DNA of 41,806 bases, taken from Candidatus Uhrbacteria bacterium. GTDB taxonomy: Bacteria; Patescibacteriota; Patescibacteriia; UBA9934. Location of the stretch: assembly GCA_018664485.1 (NCBI GenBank), contig JABJOE010000002.1, positions 75,896-117,701 of the forward strand, given 5' to 3'. The notes under the pieces were generated by a model. That model saw only the letters and a program-made list of their open reading frames with translations. It was not told the DNA's origin and ran no database searches. Position 1 is the stretch's first letter. The number at the start of each line of letters is the position of its first letter. The position numbers were made by a program, and so were the translations under genes. This document shows, piece after piece, positions 21,225 to 30,277 of the stretch.

Positions 21225-21226
21225 TC

Positions 21227-21348
21227 AAAACATCATCAGTTGGGCTATTTTCGACTCACGGGCCCCGACAGACTTCGTCTACGTACTAATAGTACGTTTC
21301 CTTGTCTGCCACCCGTTCATCGAAACTATCGCCAACTGATGATGTTTT
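21227..21348. repeat. 122-bp inverted-repeat element directly after tRNA-Leu(TAA)
   Basis: 17-bp perfect terminal IR AAAACATCATCAGTTGG / CCAACTGATGATGTTTT, imperfect inner extension, central ACGTACTA-A-TAGTACGT. Confidence 0.8.
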
Positions 21349-21514
21349 AGTTATAAGCTCGCTTGCCTTCTGCTTGGCAGCATAGAAAATCGACTAAAAT
21401 CTTGCGTTTTGTAATTTAAGACCATAGCTTTTTGCTGTGGTTTTATTGTTTATATATAGCGAGATAACTTGACGTTTTTCCTTTAACTTTAGCCATTATT
21501 TTGCTCGTTACAAC

Positions 21515-27259: not shown

Positions 27260-27344
27260 GCCGGGATGGTGGAATTGGTAGACACGCGTGCCTTAGGAGC
27301 ACGTGCCGTAAGGTGTGCAGGTTCGAGTCCTGTTCCCGGTACCA
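27260..27344 (+). tRNA. tRNA-Leu (anticodon TAG)
   Basis: GCCGGGATGGTGGAATTGGTAGACACGCGTGCCTTAGGAGCACG...GCAGGTTCGAGTCCTGTTCCCGGTACCA. Confidence 0.95.
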
Positions 27345-27382
27345 TCAAAATGACGCAACCGAAAGGTTGGGTCTTTTTGATT
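27345..27382 (+). terminator. Terminator of tRNA-Leu(TAG)
   Basis: ATCAAAA-TGAC-GCAACC-GAAA-GGTTG-GGTC-TTTTTGAT extended stem with GAAA loop. Confidence 0.65.
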
Positions 27383-27384
27383 CT

Positions 27385-27810
27385 GCGACAGGACTCGATC
27401 GGATTTAATTGTCCTGCTTGCCTGCCGTAGCTTCAGCGAAGGCAGGTTCCCGGTACCACTGAGCTGAGCTCGGTTTGATCGATGTGATACGGAAGCTGAG
27501 CTTCCGTTAGGACAAACGTCAAGATAGGCTTAGCTTGGTGATAGTCCAGCTCAGCTGGAACAAAACGCTCTCAGATAGCGATCTGTTGGATTGCAGCTAT
27601 GATCCTCGACACCGACCAATGGGGTCGGCTTACTCTGGTTCTCGCTGCGCCTGTCTGCCGACAGGCAGGCACCAACATCTCATCTATCTGATAGCGTTTT
27701 TGAATTACGACACCCGTTCACCGAAACTATCACCAACTGATGATGTTTTATTTTTATGTAGATACGCAACCGGGTTGCGTATTTTGATTCTGCGATCTGT
27801 GGGTTCAATT
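27385..27810. repeat. Palindrome-dense composite repeat island with tRNA-Leu fragments
   Basis: Multiple perfect palindromes, a 13-bp repeat of the tRNA 3' end, an inverted T-arm fragment and a right-half copy of the 21227-21348 element. Confidence 0.75.
27762..27782. repeat. Palindrome, copy 2 (ATACGCAACC-G-GGTTGCGTAT)
   Basis: Same core as 5097-5117 and 31898-31914. Confidence 0.8.
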
Positions 27811-28956: not shown

Positions 28957-29619
28957 ATGTCTGAAACAATAAAAACCTATCTATTAGACGACCCTGACGT
29001 CCTTATACCGATGGATCGAAAGGCTTTCTATAAGGAGCAGATCGCAGAGTACAAAGAAAATGGAAGACCATCTCGTGCTGTTGAGATCGTTCAGGCTTTT
29101 TTGTTTAATGAGGACGGAGAGCTTTTTGTGCAAAAGCGCTCAATGAAAAAATCTCATAACCCAGGACTTTTGGATAAGTCTATCGGGGGTCATATTCCAA
29201 TGGGAGACAGCTCTGATCACACCATGATGGTAGAAACAATCCAGGAGATGCAAATTCCGTCGTTTGTTATCCGGTCGGGAGAGGATTTTATTCGTACTTA
29301 CGACTTGCTTAAAACTTATTTGAGCACAGTCGCTATTATCCGTCACATCGATACATCGATCATCGAGCAGGATAAAATTATTGACGGGGAGCCCGCAACG
29401 ATCGCTGCTAAAGCTCATGTTTACGTCGGAGTGTATGGAGGGCGCGCAAAGACGGTCGATAAAGAAGCGAAAGGAATTTTACAATATACGCTTGAGGACT
29501 TGGATCGTGAGATGGAGGCGTACCCTGGAATGTTCACACAAGATTTGAAGGATTTAGTGAAACGACATCGTGTGTCACTCGAGGCTTTTGTGAAAAGATT
29601 CAGCAATAAAGAAGAATAA
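28957..29619 (+). CDS. NUDIX hydrolase (IPP isomerase-like), paralogue 1
   Basis: AFLFNEDGELFVQKRSMKKSHNPGLLDKSIGGHIPMGDSSDHTMMVETIQEM. Confidence 0.8.
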   Translation: MSETIKTYLLDDPDVLIPMDRKAFYKEQIAEYKENGRPSRAVEIVQAFLFNEDGELFVQKRSMKKSHNPGLLDKSIGGHIPMGDSSDHTMMVETIQEMQIPSFVIRSGEDFIRTYDLLKTYLSTVAIIRHIDTSIIEQDKIIDGEPATIAAKAHVYVGVYGGRAKTVDKEAKGILQYTLEDLDREMEAYPGMFTQDLKDLVKRHRVSLEAFVKRFSNKEE

Positions 29620-29623
29620 ATTT

Positions 29624-30277
29624 ATGTCAGAGATTGTAAAAACTTATTTACTAGATGAGCCGTACGTTTTGTCTCCGATGGATCGTAAGACTTTTTATAA
29701 AGAACAGGTTGCTGAATTTGAAAAGAACGGAAAACCATCTCGGGCTGTCGAGATCGTCGACGTCTTTCTGTTTAACGAGGCAGGAGAACTTTTCGTGCAA
29801 AAGCGTTCATCAAATAAAGCTCATAACCCAGGACTTTTGGATAAGTCTATTGGGGGGCATGTTGATGATGGTAATGCCGCTGATTACACGGCGATGGTTG
29901 AGACGGTCCAGGAGCTGTCGGTACCTTCCGTTGTGTTGCGCTCTGATGATGATTTTCACAAGACTCATAAAATGCTGAACACGTATTTAAGTACGATTGC
30001 TATATTGCGGCATGAAGACACACGTATTTTCGAGTTTACAAAGATGATTGGCGGGAAAGAATGTACGATAGCCAATAAGGTCAATGTGTATTTCGGAGTT
30101 TACGGAGGGAAGATTAAGACCGTTGACCAAGAAGCTAAGGGCGTGTTGCAGTATACGCTTGATGATCTCCAAGATGAGATCAAAAAGGCTCCAATGATGT
30201 TCACGCAAGAACTTGGTTATTTTATTGAGTACTATCGAGCACCGCTAGATGTATTCGTTAAGAGTATTAAAAAGTAG
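29624..30277 (+). CDS. NUDIX hydrolase (IPP isomerase-like), paralogue 2
   Basis: VFLFNEAGELFVQKRSSNKAHNPGLLDKSIGGHVDDGNAADYTAMVETVQEL; colinear with the previous gene. Confidence 0.8.
   Translation: MSEIVKTYLLDEPYVLSPMDRKTFYKEQVAEFEKNGKPSRAVEIVDVFLFNEAGELFVQKRSSNKAHNPGLLDKSIGGHVDDGNAADYTAMVETVQELSVPSVVLRSDDDFHKTHKMLNTYLSTIAILRHEDTRIFEFTKMIGGKECTIANKVNVYFGVYGGKIKTVDQEAKGVLQYTLDDLQDEIKKAPMMFTQELGYFIEYYRAPLDVFVKSIKK

Follow-up and report, generated by a model that had tools for sequence, protein, structure and literature searches.

UTE, a three-hairpin palindromic element of about 101 bp, is found in Candidatus Uhrbacteria, almost always flush behind the 3' ends of tRNA or tmRNA genes, and one copy is present in the window analysed here (the whole stretch of 41,806 nucleotides, from contig 5 of the 10-contig, 0.98-Mb genome G000). 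The element has one fixed architecture and one orientation, has spread without its flanks and has two conserved folds, and palindromes with a CTNAG apex cluster at RAYT transposase genes of the same order. UTE is specific to the order Candidatus Uhrbacteria and new to Rfam. We favour, with rather better than even confidence, the explanation that it is a small non-autonomous palindromic mobile DNA of the REPIN/RAYT kind, specialised for tRNA and tmRNA 3' ends in these bacteria and probably moved by RAYT.

The layered palindrome island in the window

The palindrome island behind tRNA-Leu(TAG) is layered. The tRNA gene (27260..27344, plus strand, identified by ARAGORN and as Rfam RF00005) encodes its CCA and is followed by an intrinsic terminator (27345..27381, plus strand) whose stem begins at the CCA (inverted repeat 27344-27360/27365-27381, 4-nt loop, T-run), a layout that recurs at nearly all tRNAs of G000. 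Next comes a short unstranded palindrome read in the sequence, CCTGCC..GGCAGG (27418..27447), with a similar short match at G000:C7:116866, and then GTTCCCGGTACCA (27446..27458, plus strand), an exact 13-nt copy of the tRNA-Leu 3' end at 27332-27344. This relic is preceded by GCAG, as in a tRNA T-stem, and its T-loop has apparently been lost between GTTC repeats. UTE occupies 27459..27559 on the plus strand (covariance model R1, 94.4 bits, E 5e-22, for a copy that belongs to the training set), with hairpins H1 (CTGAGCTGAGCTCGG, 27459..27473), H2 (ACGGAAGCTGAGCTTCCGT, 27489..27507) and H3 (TCCAGCTCAGCTGGA, 27545..27559), all on the same strand.

Behind UTE lies LHF-1, which belongs to a second family of repeats and forms a large hairpin (27562..27700, unstranded), with a unique stem that includes a T-run, 17-nt arms and a conserved core that matches contigs 10 and 7 of G000. 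The right arm of another such hairpin, LHF-2 (27711..27756, plus strand), is a fragment of the tRNA-Leu(TAA) trailer located 6.4 kb upstream, being 91% identical to window positions 21310-21355 (G000:C5:97205-97250). It is followed by a terminator-like hairpin, ACGCAACCGGGTTGCGT plus TTTTGATTCTGCGA (27763..27795, plus strand), which partially repeats the hairpin behind the tRNA, including an exact 14-nt repeat of 27375-27388, and by a 13-nt string (27798..27810, plus strand) that reads as the T-arm of tRNA-Leu(TAA) and may be chance. The window UTE is thus an old copy, behind a decayed tRNA-Leu 3'-end duplicate and followed by further hairpin repeats. The simplest history suggested by the order of the pieces is that a UTE-bearing tRNA-Leu duplicate decayed to its last ~17 nt, and that the further hairpin repeats would have piled up after that decay. 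A tandem pair of similar open reading frames of about 220 aa, apparently paralogues, lies further downstream (28957-29619 and 29624-30277).

The original prediction had singled out this region for its density of palindromes and tRNA fragments, and the strings it listed are present: GAGCTGAGCTC at 27461, CGGAAGCTGAGCTTCCG at 27490, TCCAGCTCAGCTGGA at 27545, CCGACC..GGTCGG at 27612, CCTGTC..GACAGG at 27650, CCTGCC..GGCAGG at 27421, a 17-nt inverted repeat (27562-27578/27684-27700, 94% complementary), the copied tRNA end GTTCCCGGTACCA at 27446, TTTTGATTCTGCGA at both 27375 and 27782, and the T-arm piece TGTGGGTTCAATT at 27798. That last piece (13 nt, 27798-27810) and the 'inverted T-arm' ACAGGACTCG do occur in the sequence, but at such short length neither can be interpreted with confidence. 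The fold of 27456-27562 is beyond chance (z = -5.9), and the three GCTNAGC hairpins of UTE are the only ones of their kind in the 41.8-kb window. An element that lands at tRNA gene ends explains why the tRNA pieces and the palindromes had been seen together.

Part of the island is ordinary, since nearly all tRNA and tmRNA trailers of G000 open with a hairpin flush with the CCA. In a raw count, made without a shuffled control and within G000 alone (loci L213-L242, L249-L251, L010 and the window), the first paired base fell within 3 nt of the CCA in 36 of 37 trailers. The flush position of UTE may partly reflect this general rule. The LHF-1 core was also found within the terminator stems of tRNA-Thr, Arg(cct), Phe and tmRNA. 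These cores and the helices flush with the CCA place terminators and LHF hairpins in the general tRNA-trailer landscape, from which UTE stands out.

Some side observations concern the same trailers. Both LHF families combine conserved cores with stems unique to each tRNA (window 21225-21355 and 27562-27756; L010, L213, L214, L218, L241), and between them they sit in the terminator stems of Thr, Arg(cct), Phe, tmRNA, Leu(taa), Tyr and Val(gac). The trailer of tRNA-Cys(gca) (L237) contains TCGAGCTGGGCTCGA..AGCTCGATGGA, which resembles a decayed UTE.

Folds, placement and spread of UTE

All three UTE hairpins share the apex GCTNAGC. In an alignment of 48 full-length copies, 98.4% of cells pair overall (98.6% in H1, 98.7% in H2 and 97.8% in H3), and 110 cells were changed on both sides, compared to 31 +- 4 in shuffles; in H2, such double changes were found in 6 of 8 pairs. 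The alignment was fitted to a model bearing the same structure, which gives that structure some advantage, yet the effect clearly exceeds that in slid control structures, in which only 20-42% of cells paired. G-U pairs make up about 1% of the hairpin pairs, which points to palindromes at the level of DNA; strand-switching, as raised in the original prediction, could account for their near absence.

Hairpin H1 competes with a second structure. A long-range helix, P1, excludes H1 and takes in the CA of the tRNA CCA; in the window, the minimum free energy fold pairs its 5' strand (27457..27470, plus strand, including the CA of the relic CCA) with its 3' strand (GGCTTAGCTTGGTG, 27527..27540, plus strand). 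In 27 of 32 copies the central base N, which is free in H1, is the complement of N' in the 3' GCTN'AGC, compared to 9.0 +- 2.4 after shuffling, with pair types G-C (10), T-A (8), C-G (5) and A-T (4); related copies inflate these counts, which are strong support rather than a formal probability. With DNA parameters, the H1 fold lies at most 5 kcal/mol from the minimum in 39 of 48 copies. UTE has two competing conserved folds. Many copies also carry a GGTG foot 5' of H3.

The covariance model, built from 16 copies with that of the window among them, gave matches in 24 of 60 genomes of the order, and the named homologues were mostly Candidatus Uhrbacteria (Patescibacteria). Against Rfam, the window gave no match over UTE at the gathering threshold, and a UTE homologue searched at a relaxed threshold gave only chance-level matches over the element, so the single known RNA family considered in the original prediction as an alternative does not describe it. 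In the literature outside subscription journals we found no description of elements of this kind at tRNA ends or in Uhrbacteria.

The placement is highly regular. The full-length copies begin flush with the 3' end of a tRNA or tmRNA gene in 45 of 48 cases, always in the direction of the gene, and the genes that bear them cover 14 specificities (Ile, Pro, Leu, Arg, Gly, Met, Phe, Thr, Trp, Ser, Asp, Val, Ala and Tyr) as well as tmRNA. Three copies depart from this: that of the window is flush with the tRNA-Leu relic, one lies behind a possible tRNA remnant (G036:C18) and one in protein-coding surroundings (G040:C21). In G000 itself, homologues adjoin tRNA-Pro and tRNA-Ile. Since a BLAST survey whose query includes tRNA letters favours tRNA sites, the survey was repeated with a tRNA-free pattern (CCGAGCTNAGCTCGGTTG) and with the covariance model, and the tRNA-letter-free scan again found full-length copies at tRNA ends. 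Where the CCA is not fully encoded, as in a few tRNA genes of genus g2, UTE joins close behind the discriminator base.

Typical carriers contain 3 to about 12 full-length copies per genome. In genus g2 a short form with two hairpins, H1 and H2, is dispersed as well (G014, G010, G017 and G020; loci such as L159, L170 and L146), mostly inside open frames of 224-988 codons, and with this form included the model matches reach about 40-50 per genome.

Two copies within a genome can be as much as 99% identical, although their flanks resemble each other no more than background. The nearest neighbour of a copy was found in the same genome at another tRNA in 26 of 48 cases, and at the same tRNA in another genome in only 2 of 48. 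Such similarity within genomes could also stem from gene conversion. UTE occupies the tRNA-Leu(cag)-RNase J locus in G044, G029, G024 and G020, which represent three families, but not in others; within genus g11 the site is occupied in G044 and empty in G040. The insertion joints are exact on the left and ragged on the right, and no target-site duplication was found when G044 was compared with G040. A duplication of the CCA at the right end was considered too, and was rejected as not general: a CCA stands there in 11 of 48 copies, which is above chance.

Unrelated palindromes have entered the same tRNA-Leu(cag) CCA in G059 (compared with G031) and in G041 (compared with G038), the sister site being empty in each case. 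Palindromic inserts flush behind the CCA of this tRNA, some of which open with TTCGACT, were seen at L188 (G059), L185 (G023), L204 (G026) and L203 (G041).

RAYT transposases and known palindromic elements

Genes for RAYT-like Y1 transposases were found in 35 of 60 Uhrbacteria genomes, and many of them have palindromes of their own on both sides. CTNAG-apex palindromes numbered 29 near RAYT genes compared to 5 elsewhere in the same loci, while each of eight other apex types was found 0-2 times near these genes. Perfect palindromes such as CCAACACCCGGTGTTGG or GTCACTTAGTGAC flank many of the RAYT genes at loci L272-L301. In G003, doublets containing GGTG..AGCTNAGCT stand on both sides of the RAYT gene, and the doublet is also scattered over several intergenic sites, an arrangement known from REP/RAYT systems. 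None of these G003 doublets lies at a tRNA end. The NCBIfam match of the G003 RAYT is REP_Tyr_transpos, below the curated cut-off, and a search for a matching solved structure gave none. No UTE was seen directly beside a RAYT gene; GCTNAGC or CTNAG palindromes flank several Uhrbacteria RAYTs, none of them in G000. No Y1_Tnp was detectable in G000, which is 100% complete, or in the UTE carriers G015, G019, G028 and G036.

Like the REPIN and REPtron elements (PMC2817692, PMC3116915, PMC3733652), UTE consists of short palindromes, in doublets or triplets and without genes, that spread within genomes. REPINs have been reported to adopt a long-hairpin and a clover fold (PMC3116915), and UTE likewise appears to alternate between a long hairpin and separate hairpins, the central pair of P1 and H1 both covarying and their DNA energies being close. 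In a REPtron, palindromes of one type stand on both sides of the RAYT gene; in the order that carries UTE, palindromes with the same apex as UTE, but not UTE itself, flank several RAYT genes. However, UTE has three hairpins, and the 48 aligned copies have no constant GT(A/G)G head as in canonical REPs. Unlike REP/RAYT systems, which often exceed 100 copies per genome, UTE has few copies per genome, is placed flush with tRNA and tmRNA 3' ends, and is found in several genomes with no RAYT. In its behaviour UTE resembles a REPIN, yet we do not class it among the canonical REPs.

Two other groups invite comparison. Rickettsia palindromic elements (RPE) are palindromic DNA of about 100 bp that sit inside open reading frames of a reduced genome. 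Judged by description, the short form of UTE in genus g2, mostly inside long open reading frames, may be comparable to the in-frame insertion of RPEs in protein genes. The full-length element, by contrast, is hardly ever found away from tRNA 3' ends. In IS200/IS605 elements such as IS608, the foot of a terminal hairpin forms guide pairs with the flanking cleavage site, and the target is a fixed tetranucleotide. The 5' foot GGTG of UTE could, from its letters, pair in the same way with a flanking CACC; unlike these elements, UTE contains no transposase gene, and its target is a tRNA end.

On this basis we propose that a RAYT-type Y1 transposase, acting in trans, would excise UTE as folded single-stranded DNA and insert it at the foot of a folded tRNA gene. 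The foot GGTG would pair with the CACC formed at the joint by the CA of the tRNA CCA and the first two bases of the element, in a manner comparable to the guide and cleavage-site pairing of IS200/IS605, and the folded tRNA gene would presumably supply the remaining specificity.

Competing explanations and significance

A structured trailer of use to the host could have produced much of the same pattern. UTE would then be a bistable RNA at the 3' end of the pre-tRNA that shields 3'-end maturation or termination or sets its timing, and its spread would be due to selection and gene conversion, not to mobility of its own. This would fit its constant position flush on the sense strand, the hiding of the CCA by both P1 and H1, the helix at the CCA with which nearly all G000 trailers open, and the occupation of the tRNA-Leu(cag)-RNase J site in three families. 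However, most genomes of the order have no UTE (24 of 60 were positive), sister species have empty sites, a G-U share of only about 1% is unusual under constraint at the RNA level, and the related short form of genus g2 lies inside long open reading frames. We regard this explanation as rather unlikely. A joint made at the RNA level is improbable: here a reverse transcriptase would jump from the element RNA to the CCA end of a mature tRNA, and the cDNA would recombine into the tRNA gene. The CCA is indeed the only sequence common to the targets, tmRNA is among them, and the left joint is exact where the right is ragged; but some g2 copies join tRNA genes with no encoded CCA, and complete G000 has no RVT_1 gene. 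Reverse transcriptases were rejected as agents of the spread, since RVT_1 genes are not associated with UTE (10 of 16 carriers compared to 29 of 44 others).

The original prediction had suggested repeated insertion or strand-switching at a tRNA-Leu attachment hotspot, which would correspond to an integrase site produced by repeated site-specific integration. Repeated insertion next to a tRNA is supported by a multi-copy element flush with tRNA 3' ends and by occupied and empty orthologous sites; a hotspot specific to tRNA-Leu is not, the element being found at 14 specificities and tmRNA. The partial 13-nt duplication of the tRNA 3' end would suit an attachment site, but it is confined to the window: other UTE copies have no tRNA repeat past their right end, no att-core signature was seen, and the inserts are about 100 bp long and carry no genes. 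Integration of this kind is thus very improbable. Finally, the compared genomes are mostly environmental or metagenome assemblies, which might raise the suspicion of an assembly chimera or of chance palindromes; since at least 16 independent assemblies, drawn from four families, share the architecture, we give this practically no weight.

Genome-shaping repeats in Patescibacteria are little described. Beyond the RAYT-moved element that we favour, we tentatively suggest, as a possibility well short of even, that UTE represents a class of mobile palindromes that can target practically any tRNA-like gene at its 3' end, through the folded tRNA gene and a GGTG/CACC guide, each insertion providing a new tRNA 3' trailer. 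If this is true, UTE would amount to a natural insertion system that is guided by structure to a 'safe harbour' within a streamlined genome, and would link REP/RAYT biology with tRNA 3'-end maturation.
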